DNA of 24,848 nt from a virus: positions 1-24,848 of IMG/VR virus record IMGVR_UViG_3300008448_000595; one strand, written 5' to 3'. Of this stretch, positions 9,300 through 24,306 are shown one piece after another. The position numbers were made by a program, and so were the translations under genes. Position 1 is the stretch's first letter. Each line of letters opens with the position of its first letter. The notes beneath the pieces are model-generated. The model had not been told where the DNA came from. It made no database searches and saw only the letters and a list, made by a program, of their open reading frames with translations.

Positions 9300-9335
9300 G
9301 ACCTTCACTCCTTGGTTTAAGGTAACTGAACAGCC

Positions 9336-9367
9336 AAATCAAAATAAAAACGTGTTTGAAATTTGAT
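9336..9367. repeat. Intergenic repeat R1 (32 bp)
   Basis: This 32-bp stretch, AAATCAAAATAAAAACGTGT plus TTGAAATTTGAT, is identical to R3 (9523-9554) and nearly identical to R2 (9493-9521). It has an imperfect dyad (ATCAAA at the left, TTTGAT at the right). It lies in the predicted 5' leader of the leftward arm, about 16 bp beyond the nearest predicted -10 element, a position suited to an operator or RNA-level control. Confidence 0.85.
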
Positions 9368-9383
9368 CGGCGGTTCGGCGACG

Positions 9384-9412
9384 AGTGTATCGTTCCCGCC
9401 GTTCGGCGTCAA
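9384..9412 (-). promoter_or_regulatory. Candidate leftward promoter P1
   Basis: Reading the minus strand, TTGACG (9412-9407), a 17-bp spacer and TACACT (9389-9384) fit a sigma70-type promoter (5/6 and 4/6 matches). Transcription would start near 9377 and give a leader of about 78 nt to the first leftward gene, including repeat R1. Confidence 0.5.
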
Positions 9413-9463
9413 GTTTCGGCGCAAGCCGTTGAAATCCCGAGGTTTTTCGGCGAGGCGCGGCAG

Positions 9464-9493
9464 AGTGTATGGTTAGCCATGAGGTAGTGTAAA
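9464..9493 (-). promoter_or_regulatory. Candidate leftward promoter P2
   Basis: On the minus strand, TTTACA (9493-9488), an 18-bp spacer and TACACT (9469-9464) form a second candidate promoter about 80 bp upstream of P1 with the same -10 (both lie in GAGTGTAT on the plus strand). Its -35 abuts repeat R2. Between P1 and P2 the heptamer TTCGGCG occurs at 9402, 9415 and 9446, with a fourth copy at 9374. Confidence 0.35.
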
Positions 9494-9521
9494 AATCAAA
9501 ATAAAAACGCGTTGGAAATTT
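9493..9521. repeat. Intergenic repeat R2 (variant copy)
   Basis: Variant of R1/R3 with ACGCGTTGGAAATT in place of ACGTGTTTGAAATT. It lies 30 bp before R3, forming a tandem pair directly upstream of candidate promoter P2. Confidence 0.8.
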
Positions 9522-9522
9522 A

Positions 9523-9554
9523 AAATCAAAATAAAAACGTGTTTGAAATTTGAT
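9523..9554. repeat. Intergenic repeat R3 (32 bp)
   Basis: Exact 32-bp copy of R1, in direct orientation and in tandem with R2. The three copies could be repressor operators, origin iterons or phage-specific promoter elements. Confidence 0.85.
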
Positions 9555-9990
9555 TGGATTGTGTTTAGTTAGGTGTAACTGATTGATAACGCGCGATTAA
9601 AATGAAACGATACACTGCGCAATGATATAGTATAGTTAGCCAAATGATCTACTGTAAGTACCTGAAAACAAAGGAATGATATAAATAATATAGGTTTTTG
9701 GAGATAATAAGGCGAACGGGAGTGATGTTTGTTGAGAGGTTGTATAGTAGTATGTTTGTTCCTATATTGTTCCAAAAAATTGCTTCTGAAAAAAGGGTTA
9801 AACAAAAAATTGTTGGATTATTTATATTGTTTATATTAAATTAATTATACAGACACTCACTCACCCCTTGGATTTCCGTGGCTTTCTCCCCACTTTACGT
9901 AAAGTTTGTAAAAATTATACACAATCTATTTTCACGGTTTGTTCCGCGCGTTTTTTGATTGTTGATTATTCCAGTGGTAAACCGTTGATT
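9555..9990. other. AT-rich gene-free tract, candidate replication origin
   Basis: About 435 bp with no believable gene: frames are short, lack ribosome sites and have low-complexity translations. It is visibly far more AT-rich than the rest of the window, with runs such as TTTATATTGTTTATATTAAA (9821-9840) and many A/T homopolymers. It lies between the leftward replication arm and the central mini-operon, with repeats at one side and a 14-bp palindrome inside. Easily melted AT-rich tracts beside repeats are typical of phage origins, but no initiator box is identified. Confidence 0.45.
9892..9905. promoter_or_regulatory. Perfect 14-bp palindrome, candidate operator
   Basis: ACTTTACGTAAAGT is identical to its own reverse complement over all 14 bases and sits in the gene-free tract. 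Perfect dyads of this length are usual binding sites for dimeric repressors or initiators. Confidence 0.45.
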
Positions 9991-10006
9991 CTATTACAAG
10001 TATTTA

Positions 10007-10038
10007 TAACTATACACTTTACATGACATAACTATACA
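10007..10038 (-). promoter_or_regulatory. Paired TGTATAGTTA motifs, 22 bp apart
   Basis: On the minus strand TGTATAGTTA occurs twice (10038-10029 and 10016-10007) with a 22-bp period, close to two helical turns. Similar copies lie elsewhere in the control region. No -35 hexamer fits at the usual distance, so they may be protein-binding sites or promoters of a phage-type RNA polymerase rather than sigma70 promoters. Confidence 0.4.
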
Positions 10039-10110
10039 GCCCCCTGTGATCTGCCTGATAGCGGCGCTAGCAGAGCTATAAACCCCCGACGTATGGGAGG
10101 AGGTACGACG

Positions 10111-10128
10111 ACGCGAAAGCGCTCGCGT
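10111..10128. other. Small GC hairpin
   Basis: ACGCGA (10111-10116) and TCGCGT (10123-10128) are perfect complements around a 6-nt loop, just beyond the terminator of the central mini-operon. It may back up termination; no T-run follows on either strand. Confidence 0.35.
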
Positions 10129-10136
10129 AGCGGGCG

Positions 10137-10170
10137 AAAAGAAACCCCACCAGCCGGAGCCAGTGGGGTT
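10137..10170 (-). terminator. Rho-independent terminator of the central mini-operon
   Basis: Read leftward, AACCCCAC (10170-10163) pairs with GTGGGGTT (10150-10143) over a 12-nt loop, followed by TCTTTT. It lies 5 bp after the stop of the 47-residue gene, so it should end transcripts of the three small genes and isolate them from the leftward arm. Confidence 0.8.
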
Positions 10171-17885: not shown

Positions 17886-18809
17886 ATGTCGTATCCTGTT
17901 TCCCCCGGTCGCCCGAACTACTCGGGCAACTTCATCCCCGAAATCTGGTCGGGTAAGCTGATCGAGAACTTCTACGATGCCACCGTGCTCGCAGCGATCT
18001 CGAACACCGACTACGAAGGCGAAATCCGTCAGTTCGGTGATACCGTCAACATCCGCACCACCCCGGAGATCACGATCCGTGACTACGTCAAGGGTCAGGC
18101 TCTGACGGTTGAGAACCCCGACAAGCCGAAGCTCCAGCTTGTCATCGACAAGGGCGAATACTTTGCCTGCGTCGAAGACGACGTGGATAAGGTGCAGTCG
18201 GACATCAACCTGATGGACACTTGGTCGAAGGACGCCTCGGAGCGTATGAAGATCAAGATCGACCAGCGCGTTCTGACCGACCTGCTGCCGGACATCGCCG
18301 CCACCAACAAGGGTGCCACTGCCGGTGAGCAGTCGGCCTCGTTCAACCTCGGCACCAACGCTTCGCCGCTGACCGTGACCAAGGATGGCGCTGGTGGTAC
18401 CACCTCGGTGATCGACCTGATCGTCGATATGGGCACCGTGCTTGACGAAGCCAACGCTCCTGAAGCTGACCGCTTCCTCGTCATTCCTGCCAAGATGGCT
18501 GGTCTGATCAAGAAGTCGGAACTGAAGGACGCTTCGCTGACCGGTGACAGCCAGTCGATTGTCCGCAATGGCCGTCTGGGTATGGTTGATCGGTTCACCC
18601 TCTATGTGAGCCACAACCTGTACGTGTCCTCGGGCAAGTACAACCTGATCGCCGGTCACAAGATGGGCTTCACCTTCGCCTCGCAGATGACCAACATGGA
18701 AACCATCCGCTCTGAAACGACCTTCGGAAACATTATCCGTGGTCTTCAGGTGTATGGCTACAAGGTCGTCAAGGGTGAAGCACTCTCGACCGCTGTGGTC
18801 CAGTTCTGA
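17886..18809 (+). CDS. Major capsid protein
   Basis: 307 residues beginning MSYPVSPGRPNYSGNFIPEI. The FIPEIWSGKLIENFYDATVL opening, the RQFGDTVNIRTTPEI strand pair, the DIDKVQ-like KVQSDINLMDTW helix with ASERMKIKIDQRVL (the backbone helix region) and the FVVIPAKM-like DRFLVIPAKMAGLIKKSEL segment match HK97-fold coat proteins of marine and other podophages (P22-coat-like group). Size and place after the scaffold agree. Codons are strongly biased to C/G-ending forms, as expected for the most expressed gene. A very stable UUCG hairpin follows 8 bp after the stop. Confidence 0.92.
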   Translation: MSYPVSPGRPNYSGNFIPEIWSGKLIENFYDATVLAAISNTDYEGEIRQFGDTVNIRTTPEITIRDYVKGQALTVENPDKPKLQLVIDKGEYFACVEDDVDKVQSDINLMDTWSKDASERMKIKIDQRVLTDLLPDIAATNKGATAGEQSASFNLGTNASPLTVTKDGAGGTTSVIDLIVDMGTVLDEANAPEADRFLVIPAKMAGLIKKSELKDASLTGDSQSIVRNGRLGMVDRFTLYVSHNLYVSSGKYNLIAGHKMGFTFASQMTNMETIRSETTFGNIIRGLQVYGYKVVKGEALSTAVVQF

Positions 18810-20435: not shown

Positions 20436-21542
20436 ATGCCCACTAACCTGACAGGCTCAACGATCAACAGCACGTATGATCAGTTGCTGCACATTGACGG
20501 CGGTCCGGTCGCGACTGAGCAGACGATCTATAGCGGCACTGGTGTTGCGACGGCCCTGAAGGTCGGCACGGTATCTGTCTCGGTGGACAACGTCCGCTTC
20601 GATGGCAACACCATCTCGACACTGGATACCAACGGTAACCTCGTGCTTGCTCCGAACGGGACCGGCTCTGTCAGCATGTCCAAGGTCGCCATCACTGGCG
20701 GGACGATCTCGGGGATTACTGACCTCGCCATCGCTGATGGTGGTACGGGTGCTTCAGACGCCGTGACGGCTCGGTCTAATCTCGGCCTTGGTTCCATCGC
20801 CACTCAGAACTCGAATAACGTCACCATCACGGGTGGCGCGATTTCCGGCGTGTCGTTTACTGGGTCTTTCTCCGGCGTCACGTCCATCGAGTCGGGGACC
20901 TTCACCACGAGTAATGCCGCAACTGGTCTCACCATCACGAGCAGCACGATCTCGGCTGATGGCACCGACGCGAATATCGATATCAACATCACTCCGAAGG
21001 GGAGCGGTGAGGTCAACGTCACCAACATTGATATTCTGAGTGGTAAGGTTCCATTCAGCACCGTCACCGGGCGGGCCTATGCTTCATTATCGGACATCAC
21101 GGATCAGACTGGTAACGTCTCAACGCCGACCGCAGTGAAGTTCGGTACGACTGAAGTTGCCGGTAGTGGTATCACGATGGTGACTGACGGGTCTAACCTA
21201 ACGCGCCTGACTTTCGCTGCGGCGGGCACTTACATGGTTGCACCCAACCTCCAGCTTTTGAACACCGATGCCGCTGACCACGACGTTACTGTCTGGCTCC
21301 GACTTGATGGTTCTGACATTGCTCGGTCTGCTACGCGGGTTACGGTCCCCAAAACTGGTGACGGCGGAAGCGCTTTCTTCCAGATCGTGTTCTATGTGAC
21401 CGTGACCGCAGGGCAGTATGTTCAGGTCATGTGGCTTCCGGAGAACGTCGCTGTTACTCTGGATCATGTTGCCGCAGCCGCAGGACCGCCTGCTGTCCCT
21501 GCTATCCCTTCCGCTGTTATCGTTTCTGAAAGGATTGCCTGA
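20436..21542 (+). CDS. Fibre protein with jelly-roll-like C-terminal domain
   Basis: 368 residues. The shaft (about 10-200) is Gly/Thr/Ser-rich with short repeats (TNGNLVLAPNGTGSV, ITGGTISGI, IADGGTGASDAVTARSNLG), typical of trimeric phage fibres. From about residue 205 (YASLSDITDQTGN) to the end, a C1q/TNF-like beta-sandwich is suggested by RLTFAAAGTYMVAPNLQL, VTVWLRLDGSDIARS and FYVTVTAGQYVQVMWL. The globular tip would bind the receptor. Located between the adaptor fibre and the basic-protein cluster, 3 bp after the previous stop; the next gene overlaps its stop by 1 nt. Confidence 0.85.
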   Translation: MPTNLTGSTINSTYDQLLHIDGGPVATEQTIYSGTGVATALKVGTVSVSVDNVRFDGNTISTLDTNGNLVLAPNGTGSVSMSKVAITGGTISGITDLAIADGGTGASDAVTARSNLGLGSIATQNSNNVTITGGAISGVSFTGSFSGVTSIESGTFTTSNAATGLTITSSTISADGTDANIDINITPKGSGEVNVTNIDILSGKVPFSTVTGRAYASLSDITDQTGNVSTPTAVKFGTTEVAGSGITMVTDGSNLTRLTFAAAGTYMVAPNLQLLNTDAADHDVTVWLRLDGSDIARSATRVTVPKTGDGGSAFFQIVFYVTVTAGQYVQVMWLPENVAVTLDHVAAAAGPPAVPAIPSAVIVSERIA

Positions 21543-21775
21543 TGCCCAAGCGCGTTCCCGGTGTCACTGACATGACTCCTGCACAGAAGAAGATGTATAC
21601 CTCTGGTGCGACCAAGTACATGAAGGAGAGCGCTGAGGAGCGCCGCTACCGTCGTGCTATGGGGTCGCAGGCGGACATCGTCGAGCGCGGCAACCGTATG
21701 CAGTCGATGGAAGCCAAGGAGAGCAAACTCATCCAGCGCAGTGGAACCGGCTACGGCAGCTACAGGAGCAAGTGA
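21542..21775 (+). CDS. Small basic protein 1 of five (77 aa)
   Basis: Begins MPKRVPGVTDMTPAQKKMYT; Lys/Arg-rich with a helical centre (KYMKESAEERRYRRAMGSQA) and a flexible GTGYGSYRSK tail. Coupled to the fibre gene by TGATG. It opens a run of five small basic genes. Not recognised. Confidence 0.78.
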   Translation: MPKRVPGVTDMTPAQKKMYTSGATKYMKESAEERRYRRAMGSQADIVERGNRMQSMEAKESKLIQRSGTGYGSYRSK

Positions 21776-21776
21776 G

Positions 21777-22037
21777 ATGGCGAAGACCCCAGCGTGGACC
21801 CGCAAAGAGGGGAAGGACCCGAAGGGTGGGTTGAACGCCAAGGGTCGTGCCTCTGCCAAGGCTCAGGGGATGAACCTGAAGCCGCCTGCTCCTAACCCCA
21901 AGACCAAGGAGGACAAGGGACGCAGGGCGTCCTTCTGTGCCCGGATGGAGGGGATGAAGAAGAAGCTCACTTCGGAGAAGACCGCCCGCGATCCCAACTC
22001 GCGCATCAACAAATCTTTGAGAGCTTGGAACTGCTGA
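21777..22037 (+). CDS. Small basic protein 2 of five, DUF6321-like (86 aa)
   Basis: ATG 21777 has AGGAG 8 nt upstream. The sequence opens MAKTPAWTRKEGKDPKGGLN, has RRASFCARMEGMKKK in the middle and ends ARDPNSRINKSLRAWNC. The WTRKEGK...GGLNAKGRAS start and the SFCARM...SRINKSLRxWNC end are signatures I have seen in phages and large DNA viruses; the DUF6321 name is from memory. About one third of residues are Lys or Arg. Function unknown; nucleic-acid contact is plausible from charge. Confidence 0.85.
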   Translation: MAKTPAWTRKEGKDPKGGLNAKGRASAKAQGMNLKPPAPNPKTKEDKGRRASFCARMEGMKKKLTSEKTARDPNSRINKSLRAWNC

Positions 22038-22038
22038 G

Positions 22039-22206
22039 ATGGCCAGTCCGAAACCCACTAATCCGTCGCTCTGGTCGAGGGTCAAGGCTGAAGCCAAGTC
22101 CAAGTTCGACGTGTATCCCAGTGCCTATGCCAATGCGTGGGCTGCCAAGGAGTACAAGAAGCGCGGCGGCGGGTGGAAGGGGCCGGATAACCGGGTGAAG
22201 AAATGA
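22039..22206 (+). CDS. Small basic protein 3 of five (55 aa)
   Basis: ATG 22039 directly follows the previous stop. Sequence begins MASPKPTNPSLWSRVKAEAK and carries YPSAYANAWAAKEYKKRGGG, a pattern recurring in viral proteins. It contains 13 Lys/Arg. Its TGA overlaps the next ATG by 4 nt (ATGA). The short length makes it easy to miss, but the overlaps and pattern argue strongly for a real gene. Function unknown. Confidence 0.82.
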   Translation: MASPKPTNPSLWSRVKAEAKSKFDVYPSAYANAWAAKEYKKRGGGWKGPDNRVKK

Positions 22207-22436
22207 GCAAGGGCGGTCTCGGCAAATGGTTTGGTGAGAAGTGGGTCGATGTGAAGACCGGCAAGCCCTGCGGGCGGTCCGGCTCTGAGAAGTCTACTCG
22301 CAAGTATCCGGCCTGCCGCCCTGAGGCCGCTGCCAAGAAGCTCACAGCTTCAGAGCGCAAGACCATGGCGGCTAAGAAATCTGGTCCGGCTCGTCAGTCA
22401 TGGCCGGTCACGCCGTCTGGTAAGAGGAAGAACTGA
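22203..22436 (+). CDS. Small basic protein 4 of five, KWFxEKWVD family (77 aa)
   Basis: Begins MSKGGLGKWFGEKWVDVKTG, then KPCGRSGSEKSTRKYPACRP and a Lys/Ala/Ser tail (LTASERKTMAAKKS). The GGLxKWFxEKWVDVxTGxPCGR opening and the KYPACRP segment occur in phage and large-virus proteins of unknown function (possibly DUF5872, from memory). The two conserved cysteines suggest a small metal or disulphide site. Strongly basic. Confidence 0.85.
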   Translation: MSKGGLGKWFGEKWVDVKTGKPCGRSGSEKSTRKYPACRPEAAAKKLTASERKTMAAKKSGPARQSWPVTPSGKRKN

Positions 22437-22437
22437 C

Positions 22438-22605
22438 ATGGCAAAGAAACCCGACAAGGTAGCTGTCGTAATGAGAGAGTACAAGCGTGGCACGCTCCAC
22501 GCTGGCCGGGACCCCAAGGGTCCCAAGAAGGCACCTATCGTCAAATCTCGCAAGCAGGCTATCGCCATCGCACTGAGTGAGGCGGGTAAAGCAAGGAAGA
22601 AGTGA
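22438..22605 (+). CDS. Small basic protein 5 of five, DUF6496-like (55 aa)
   Basis: ATG 22438 comes 1 bp after the previous stop. Begins MAKKPDKVAVVMREYKRGTL and ends IVKSRKQAIAIALSEAGKAR plus KK. The VMREYKxGxL...KSRKQAIAIALSEAGKA layout matches the DUF6496 family as I remember it, found in phages and bacteria. About one third of residues are Lys or Arg. The next gene overlaps its stop by 1 nt. Function unknown; DNA binding is plausible. Confidence 0.85.
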   Translation: MAKKPDKVAVVMREYKRGTLHAGRDPKGPKKAPIVKSRKQAIAIALSEAGKARKK

Positions 22606-22892
22606 TGGAAGAGAAGCTCTATATCCGCGTCAAGAGTGACGGGTTCATCTACGACTATAATGAGCGGATGGCGGTTCATCCGTCCTGCGAAGTGGTCACC
22701 GAACGGGAAGTCTATCCTGAACGGTCCATCACCCCGGAGGTTGCCCAGAAGATCGAGGAGTTCACCAAGCCCGCCCCCAAGCGCGGACGCAAGCCTCGCA
22801 AGGGTCTCGATCTGGCTACTGACATTGCAGAAGAACCAGTATATACTGACCCCGAACTGGCTGCTGAAGCTGCACGGGGTTGGCCTGAATGA
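22605..22892 (+). CDS. Hypothetical protein (95 aa)
   Basis: ATG 22605 overlaps the previous TGA (TGATG), with AGGA 7 nt upstream; a GTG one codon earlier is also possible. Begins MEEKLYIRVKSDGFIYDYNE, a beta-rich part, followed by a KPAPKRGRKPRKG basic linker (an AT-hook-like GRKPRKG) and an acidic end (IAEEPVYTDPELAAEA). The first 40 residues resemble small virion or late proteins placed before adaptors. Not recognised. Confidence 0.78.
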   Translation: MEEKLYIRVKSDGFIYDYNERMAVHPSCEVVTEREVYPERSITPEVAQKIEEFTKPAPKRGRKPRKGLDLATDIAEEPVYTDPELAAEAARGWPE

Positions 22893-23533
22893 CGCCTGCG
22901 GATATCATCGCTGAAGCACGAGTACTTATTCAGGACTCGCGGACTCCGTATCGCTATAGCGATACGGTACTGTTGGGTTTCGTCAATCAGACGTTGCGCC
23001 GCATGTCGATCCTGCGTCCTGATCTGTTCATGGTCATCGGTGATATCCCCACGACGGCAAACACGGTTATCCAGAGTTGTCCTAGCGACTCGCTACGTCT
23101 GGTCGAGATTTTCCAGATCAAGAACGGCGATGCCGTCACCGAGGTCAATCGGGAAGTCCTCGATCAGATGAGTCCCGGCTGGGTCAACGAGGCGGCAGGG
23201 ACGCCGCTCAACTTCATGCGGCACGTCCGCAACCCGAACAAGTTCTTCCTTTACCCCCGCCCTACGGCGGGGATCGTGCTTGTCGGTGAGTACGCTCAGG
23301 TCCCGCCCACCTATACGTTGAACCAGACGATTGTGGCGCTTCCTGACTCCTACCTCCCCGTGGCTGCGGATGGCGTGGTATTCCTCGCAGAGTCGGTCGA
23401 TAACGAACACGTCAACTCGAACCGCGCCAAGCTGTTCCAAGACTCGTTCAACCAGACGCTGGCGGCAGGTCTCCAGACTCGCACCCTTACCGACACAGAG
23501 GAAGGCGGACTTGATCCGAAGCAGGTGATCTGA
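22889..23533 (+). CDS. Head-tail adaptor protein (DUF6682-like)
   Basis: 214 residues beginning MTPADIIAEARVLIQDSRTP. The RYSDTVLLGFVNQTLRRMSI helix region, the DSLRLVEIFQIKNGDAVTEV strand and FFLYPRPTAGIVLVGEYA are typical of the phage adaptor family that docks below the portal in short-tailed phages (gp11-like role). ATG overlaps the previous TGA by 4 nt and its own stop overlaps the next ATG. The family name DUF6682 is from memory. Confidence 0.85.
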   Translation: MTPADIIAEARVLIQDSRTPYRYSDTVLLGFVNQTLRRMSILRPDLFMVIGDIPTTANTVIQSCPSDSLRLVEIFQIKNGDAVTEVNREVLDQMSPGWVNEAAGTPLNFMRHVRNPNKFFLYPRPTAGIVLVGEYAQVPPTYTLNQTIVALPDSYLPVAADGVVFLAESVDNEHVNSNRAKLFQDSFNQTLAAGLQTRTLTDTEEGGLDPKQVI

Positions 23534-24306
23534 TGGTTGATCGTGCGTTCTCCTCTCTGGCTGCCAAGATCAACCCGAGCGTTCCGGGCTGCCCTACTGC
23601 GACGATGATCCAGTACATCCGCGACTCGGCGATCCGGACTTGTGAGCGCACGCTGGCATGGCGCTATGAGGTGCCGCTGTTCGACCTCCTGCCGGGGGTC
23701 CACGAGTACGCCTACAACAAGCCGACCAACACGGATGCTCACGCAGTCTTCGCCGCTATCGTCAACGGTAGCCATTTGGAGAAGCTGACGCTCGACGATG
23801 CCCTGCGGCTTTATCCCCAGTGGGCCGATCTCTATTCGGGCGAAGACCCATCCGTACTGTGGAGCCTGACGCCTCCGGGTAGCTATAACACGTTTGACTA
23901 TAACGACTCGCTGTTCAATGATGGTGAACCGTTCGTGCTGCCCGAGTCTGTGGTCGCTGATGCAAGCACGCCACGCTCGATCTGTCAGGTAACCCCAGAT
24001 AAGTTTATCGTTCTTCCGTTGCCGGATGACAACGAGACCTACACGATGCGGATGTTCTTGGCGCTCAAGCCCAAGCGTGATGCATCTGGTATGGACTCGG
24101 TTATCTTCGATGATCTCGAAGAAGTCATCATGCACGGTGCGCTCCAGCATTTGCTGGTGCTGCCTAATCAGTACTGGTCTGATCGGGAACTCGCAGCGTA
24201 CCACGCCAAGCAGTACGTCTATCAGATCGCAGAACGTCGCGCTCGTGCCAATCTCGGTAATGTCCGGGGTTCGATGCGAGCTAAGATGCAGCCATTCGGA
24301 GCCTGA
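23533..24306 (+). CDS. Putative tail adaptor / tubular protein (257 aa)
   Basis: Begins MVDRAFSSLAAKINPSVPGC. The pattern of an N-terminal helix with CERTLAWRYEVPLFDLLPGV, a central beta-rich part (RSICQVTPDKFIVLPLPDDN) and a C-terminal helical region (DLEEVIMHGALQHLLVLPNQ; YHAKQYVYQIAERRAR) fits connector/tail-tube adaptor proteins of podophages, in which the LxxxxxxLLxxPxxYWSD helix packs below the portal. Stop/start overlap with the preceding adaptor (TGATG) supports joint assembly. Confidence 0.8.
   Translation: MVDRAFSSLAAKINPSVPGCPTATMIQYIRDSAIRTCERTLAWRYEVPLFDLLPGVHEYAYNKPTNTDAHAVFAAIVNGSHLEKLTLDDALRLYPQWADLYSGEDPSVLWSLTPPGSYNTFDYNDSLFNDGEPFVLPESVVADASTPRSICQVTPDKFIVLPLPDDNETYTMRMFLALKPKRDASGMDSVIFDDLEEVIMHGALQHLLVLPNQYWSDRELAAYHAKQYVYQIAERRARANLGNVRGSMRAKMQPFGA

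Follow-up and report, generated by a model that had tools for sequence, protein, structure and literature searches.

A run of small basic genes in a late viral operon

The stretch of DNA analysed here (the window) is a viral record of 24,848 bases, IMGVR_UViG_3300008448_000595, whose plus strand carries a late operon encoding a large terminase, a portal, a scaffold-like protein, the major capsid protein and fibre-like proteins, followed by five small open reading frames (ORFs), P1 to P5, which we refer to as the cassette; at its downstream end lie P6, an SU10-type adaptor, a phrog_437 virion protein and a further fibre-like ORF (Table 1). An AT-rich stretch at 9310-10170, whose GC falls as low as 31% where the flanks have 50-60% and which has no convincing ORFs, separates the minus-strand early genes from the plus-strand late genes and is a possible origin or promoter region. 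The isolate capsids nearest to that of the window (gene at 17886-18806) belong to the Rhizobium phages RHph_TM3_14A and relatives, at 54% identity, in which a search of isolate phages with P4 found no match.

Table 1. Position and supporting evidence for the cassette genes and their neighbours in the window.
Feature	Position	Strand	Evidence
Fibre-like protein 5' of the cassette	20436..21542	+	Weak PHROG tail-fibre matches; position kept in most adaptor loci
P1, 77 aa, net +9, lineage-specific small basic protein	21542..21775	+	ORF; dN/dS 0.35
P2, 86 aa, net +16, DUF6321 (PF19846)	21777..22037	+	Pfam 77.7 bits; phrog_4689 1.2e-33; dN/dS 0.12
P3, 55 aa, net +9, N-terminal half of DUF5872	22039..22206	+	30.0 bits; dN/dS 0.11
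P4, 77 aa, net +15, C-terminal half of DUF5872	22203..22436	+	29.8 bits; dN/dS 0.10
P5, 55 aa, net +13, DUF6496 (PF20106)	22438..22605	+	50.1 bits; dN/dS 0.095
P6, 95 aa, acidic (net -5), outside the basic set	22605..22892	+	After the cassette in 36/36 scored adaptor loci
P7, SU10-type head-tail adaptor	22889..23533	+	PF24175, phrog_399
P8, virion structural protein	23533..24306	+	phrog_437

The initial annotation of this DNA had described five stop/start-coupled genes of 77, 86, 55, 77 and 55 residues at 21542-22605; coordinates and lengths proved exact, and the junctions are tight or overlapping throughout. The fibre stop and P1 start overlap by 1 nt, P3 and P4, in different frames, by 4 nt (ATGA), and P5 and P6 by 1 nt, while the remaining stops and starts nearly abut (21775 and 21777 for P1 and P2, 22037 and 22039 for P2 and P3, 22436 and 22438 for P4 and P5). 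The proposed site between a fibre gene and the head-tail adaptors stands, with the correction that the acidic P6 separates P5 from the adaptor, and the proposed content of a quarter to a third Lys+Arg holds for P2, P4 and P5 (27, 26 and 31%), with P1 (22%) and P3 (24%) slightly below a quarter. Elsewhere in the operon, net charge is -2 to -23 for the proteins of capsid, portal, scaffold, fibre and adaptor, and a mild positive charge (+5) is confined to TerL and a single ORF of 116 aa. Contiguity of the five most basic among 20 late genes has a p of about 0.001, by a rough count that takes gene order as random.

Median dN/dS is 0.118, 0.108, 0.102 and 0.095 for P2, P3, P4 and P5, and 0.354 for P1; the capsid protein, for comparison, has 0.083 and the adaptor 0.132. 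P2-P5 are under strong purifying selection and P1 under a looser one, and, since the ratios are low, all five ORFs can be taken as real genes. The suspicion that genes this short escape common callers was borne out by P4-type ORFs in two other phages: that of CRP-2 (L236:2317-2535) was missed, gp69 being annotated over it in another frame, and that of DSL-LC04 (L275:6001-6189) bears no annotated feature.

Families of the cassette proteins and their kin

P2 aligns with all 72 positions (1-72) of the DUF6321 profile (cut-off 28.5 bits) and has the motif GGLNAKGR...SFCARM...DPNSRINKSLRAWNC, while P5, with the motif KQAIAIALSEAGKA, exceeds the cut-off of 24 bits for DUF6496. Relatives of P2 occur in 493 of 50,697 phage records, almost all with aquatic hosts. 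In public annotation, a bare DUF6321 protein of phage MinM2 (L239:8001-8246) is labelled 'RecA-like recombination protein', a label that looks wrong, and a DUF6496-like match in MW202462.1 (29059-29187) lies beneath a gene labelled 'high potential iron-sulfur protein'. A literature search by the names DUF6321, DUF5872 and DUF6496 and by motif returned next to nothing: among 5.39 million papers a single one mentions any of the three, and does so incidentally. P1 matches no family above cut-off in Pfam, PHROG or NCBIfam; its homologues among the fetched loci amount to 20 ORFs (11 non-redundant), and this confinement to close relatives rules it out as a member of a widespread set.

P3 and P4 pass the cut-off of one and the same family, DUF5872 (PF19197; 27.5 bits), P3 on positions 1-39 and P4 on positions 53-101 of its 116-position profile, with the motifs KFDVYPSAYANAW and GLGKWFGEKWVDVKTGKPCGR...YPACRP, respectively. 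Because they match the N- and C-terminal parts of a single profile, we regard them as one domain cut in two, which would act as one unit. P3 accompanies P4 in 125 of 130 P4 occurrences in the fetched viral loci, nearly always directly before it, and three of the five exceptions lie near contig edges; of the 124 pairs that could be measured, 113 have an in-frame start codon for P4 no more than 8 nt before the stop of P3. In bacteria both halves form one chain, and in virus contig L091 a DUF6321 gene has a one-piece DUF5872 gene right behind it, where the P3-P4 pair would otherwise stand; the window has two overlapping genes instead of such a single polypeptide. A scan of viral contigs with a bacterial alignment for one-piece DUF5872 gave two loci. 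The initial description of five independent proteins is therefore unsupported on two counts, P3 and P4 being halves of one domain and P1 not being conserved beyond its lineage.

Two further observations concern P3. In some relatives (L180:6335-7261, L070:7046-7996 and L063:2-742, on the contigs of L374-L376) the gene is interrupted at KFDVYP^SAYANAW by an insert of 254 aa, although P3 itself has just 55 aa. The insert begins with Cys, ends in ..CVTGN before Ser and comes in two alleles that occupy the same site and share 63% identity; its match to Pfam Hint is sub-threshold (E 0.088) and it has none in NCBIfam, but these features lead us to predict that the inserts are intein-like. In S-CBS4, the portal protein (L243:398-2299, PF06381) contains a P3-like segment, KFKTWPSAVAGAYVTRKYKE, near its C-terminus (ORF residues 520-566).

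The kin of these families extend beyond phages. Kinship with large DNA viruses, initially proposed through motifs in at least three of the proteins, is supported for P3 and P4, DUF5872 being annotated in the haptophyte virus Chrysochromulina parva virus BQ1 (CpV-BQ1), whose protein, like the bacterial ones, has the same Pfam domain as P3 and P4 together. In bacteria the domains are rare: among 299 genomes of one phylum, four carry DUF6321, one DUF5872 over cut-off and 14 DUF6496. Three of the DUF6321 carriers are species with large genomes, and each of these has DUF6496 as well. The Pseudomonadota DUF6321 and DUF6496 proteins share their Pfam domains with P2 and P5 but bear long Lys/Ser/Ala-rich tracts resembling histone H1 tails, whereas the phage forms are bare domains; the C-terminal segment of bacterial DUF5872 has a sub-threshold match to Rho_N (E 0.021). 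A genome scan with P4 gave four MAG/SAG contigs only, and the two examined further, L250 and L251, carry P2 and P3 nearby and are probably phage, which makes a bacterial P4 family unlikely.

Co-occurrence, recurrence and fusion

Whether the five genes co-occur as a block near capsid genes, the check put forward in the initial annotation, was assessed on loci fetched with the neighbouring adaptor, a query independent of the five, and scored in the 36 with 2.5 kb on both sides. P2, P3 and P4 were each found on the same strand in 25 of these loci, P5 in 19 and P1 in 11; all five are present in eight and none in six, and P2-P3-P4 stand beside the adaptor in 25/36, which upholds the block. Gene order is kept in 77 of 80 adaptor loci, and in 13 loci P5 is fused to P3 as one ORF. 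In loci fetched with P2 itself (26 scorable), P2 mostly occurs without the other cassette genes, so DUF6321 also lives independently.

Unrelated phages that infect SAR11, Roseobacter, Methylophilales, Prochlorococcus and lake bacteria also have the P2-P3-P4 set. P4 relatives among isolates are limited to ten phage records, usually with a P3-type gene adjacent or a few genes off and often with P2 close by. HTVC027P has gp49 (P3)-gp50 (P4)-gp52 (P2) upstream of the capsid gene; DSL-LC04 has gp56-gp54-unannotated P4, in the order P2-P3-P4, between cement and adaptor genes; CRP-7 has gp65-gp64-gp63 before the terminase, gp64 resembling by eye the P3-like segment of cyanophages; MEP401 (gp48-gp47-gp46, before the terminase) and Lederberg (gp55-gp52-gp51, the gp52 match reaching only E 1.7e-4) have, following P2, separate genes for N and C halves of the bacterial type; and P-SCSP2 has gp19, gp22 and gp23 between scaffold and capsid. 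The P3-P4 pair occurs without P2 in CRP-2, C72C1 and HTVC106P, and P2 lies 4.5 kb away in HTVC023P. In most carriers these genes adjoin those for capsid, scaffold, cement, adaptor or terminase.

A chance grouping of unrelated small Lys-rich ORFs is scarcely credible on this evidence: short Lys-rich sequences do inflate weak matches, but P2-P5 pass curated cut-offs, have low dN/dS, keep their order in the adaptor loci and recur in unrelated phages, so that for them the idea is refuted, P1 being the weakest member.

P2 identity to the window protein is 79% in MinM2, 72% in Lederberg, 63% in P-SSM2 and 59% in MEP401. The window capsid protein has no significant match to the capsids of P-SSM2, S-SCSM1, DSL-LC04, HTVC027P and P-SCSP1d and only marginal ones to those of MEP401 and P-SCSP2, and its terminase matches none of the four carrier terminases tested. 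Since P2 is conserved while capsid and terminase have diverged, its partner is likely to be something common to all these phages, DNA before all, and, as far as sequence comparison can tell, such a shared partner likely explains the conservation better than contact with a phage-specific capsid would; recent gene exchange could also account for the similarity. The same divergence bears on a structural role, in which the proteins, small and basic, would bind the acidic capsid or adaptor proteins as cement, as linkers or at the head-tail joint. The window set adjoins the adaptors, and in P-SCSP1d P2 lies between the capsid and tail-adaptor genes; yet the families persist while capsid and terminase diverge beyond recognition, and a passage on the portal-tail complex in the P-SCSP1u cryo-EM paper lists no proteins besides those of portal, adaptor, nozzle and fibre. 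We consider this role very unlikely.

In T4-like cyanophages the domains occur in one long polypeptide. PSSM2_123 of P-SSM2 (T4-GC 119) and gp29 of S-SCSM1, encoded between neck and terminase genes, have DUF6321 at the C-terminal end and, unlike the three separate genes of the window, combine it with P4-like and P3-like segments and extra Cys-rich segments. Profile-profile comparison of the upstream part gave E 1.6e-7 (probability 94%) with P4 and E 5.8e-7 (probability 92%) with P3, against 0.54 and 0.07 for swapped controls, and the P4 HMM finds the S-SCSM1 gp29 segment at 7.6e-6; as the profiles from cyanophages have little depth and the alignment with P3 takes in 28 columns around PSAYA, the P3 link is weaker than the P4 link. 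MinM2 has a 55-aa gene before DUF6321, and two bacterial proteins (L255, L256) appear by eye to consist of the same two parts with a Lys-rich linker. Domains fused here and encoded by adjacent genes there would usually work together.

Such fused forms provide the link to virions. The S-CREM2 protein gp137 (108049-109521), which has a C-terminal DUF6321 (2.6e-13) and no detectable P3- or P4-like segments, was identified in the virion proteome by 4 unique peptides with 4.1% coverage (PMC10665884 Table 3), peptides that may derive from the part outside DUF6321. In the S-SCSM1 record, gp29 bears one of 48 tags reading 'virion protein', against 45 proteins reported by mass spectrometry (MS; PMC9602691). 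The tag is thus probably an MS call. Lys-rich proteins are poorly seen after trypsin. For this reason, we treat as weak counter-evidence that the DUF6321 protein of S-SZBM1 (PP650_gp084), by gene order, is absent from the 30 listed virion proteins (PMC9146016). The label 'similar to Synechococcus phage S-SM1 protein', which sits on P-SSM2 neck, tail and head genes as well as on PSSM2_123, was set aside as ambiguous as a mark of S-SM1 virion proteomics. Our literature search found no report of a search of virions for the stand-alone forms, and we infer that these, too, sit in the virion. Of the late virion context initially proposed, the operon position thus holds, and packaging into virions gains support from the published MS detection of a fused relative.

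Possible roles in the phage particle

The charge contrast with the other virion proteins, the recurrence in independent lineages, the virion-detected relative and the conservation pattern of P2, together with the H1-like tracts and the Rho_N-like segment of the bacterial kin, lead us to favour, with evenly balanced confidence, the reading that the five are virion-internal DNA-binding proteins, made late and packaged with the genome in the manner of the T4 internal proteins. The cassette proteins would bind DNA, enter the particle together with the genome, travel with it and probably exit with it on infection. That they bind locally, to DNA in the particle or on its way into the host, or help to fill the head, would agree with the evidence equally.

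The epithet 'histone-like', used for the set in the initial annotation, has neither fold nor sequence support. A PDB sequence search with P2-P5 gave no match up to E=10, and Foldseek with a mostly helical P2 model of moderate confidence (mean pLDDT 80) gave one meaningless match; the P4 model was too poor for use. Condensation of the bulk of the genome is possible but not favoured and quantitatively doubtful: one set contributes +62 against about 100,000 phosphates, taking the 45-56 kb contigs of close relatives, so that some 1,600 copies of each protein would be needed for neutralisation, and basic proteins are thought to contribute little to the neutralisation of phage dsDNA (PMC3281028).

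The closest known systems are the T4 internal proteins IPI, IPII and IPIII, three small basic proteins present in about 360 copies each, which bind DNA at low salt and of which IPI is injected, inhibits GmrSD and protects the DNA (PMC9026906, PMC9958956). Both sets comprise several small basic proteins, the T4 ones head-associated and those of the cassette putatively so, and Pfam and PHROG searches of the five gave no match pointing to IPI-IPIII. The head-protease site motif of T4 capsid-targeting peptides is [LI]xE. This motif is absent from the first 30 residues of all five, which thus lack the T4-type targeting signature. The likeness to IPI invites the thought that the cassette proteins are particle-borne effectors ejected against the host or its DNA defences; however, the T4 internal proteins are reported to be poorly conserved and the cassette proteins are highly conserved. 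Purifying selection on them is comparable to that on the capsid protein, and identity between phages that infect different hosts is very high, which does not resemble an arms race; we judge such effectors decidedly unlikely. The chlorovirus PBCV-1 has virion DNA-binding proteins that are likewise basic and packaged with dsDNA (PMC3281028), a likeness by description for which no homology is claimed, PBCV-1 being a eukaryotic virus whose DNA is packed more loosely.

Late DNA-binders might alternatively serve as packaging or head-filling accessory factors that aid terminase or portal in starting or regulating packaging and are not destined for the mature particle in quantity. Terminase or portal genes are indeed nearby in CRP-2, CRP-7, MEP401 and C72C1, and the T4-like cyanophage form has a terminase neighbour too, but the cassette of the window lineage adjoins the adaptor, not the terminase, elsewhere it adjoins scaffold, capsid or cement genes, and a relative has been detected in mature virions; we think such factors unlikely.

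Extending the favoured virion-internal, DNA-binding reading, the families might form a transferable 'phage chromatin' kit of three or four basic domains, exchanged among tailed phages of aquatic bacteria as separate genes or fusions and akin to H1-like bacterial and, for DUF5872, large-DNA-virus proteins of algae, which would coat or organise the packaged DNA and enter the host with it, a proposal that we advance tentatively and regard as rather unlikely. Joining DUF6321, DUF5872 and DUF6496 as one late module, which has fused forms and a relative detected in virions, turns three unknown families into a single testable hypothesis, and the question whether DNA-organising proteins are packaged by tailed phages can be put to the cassette as a natural system.
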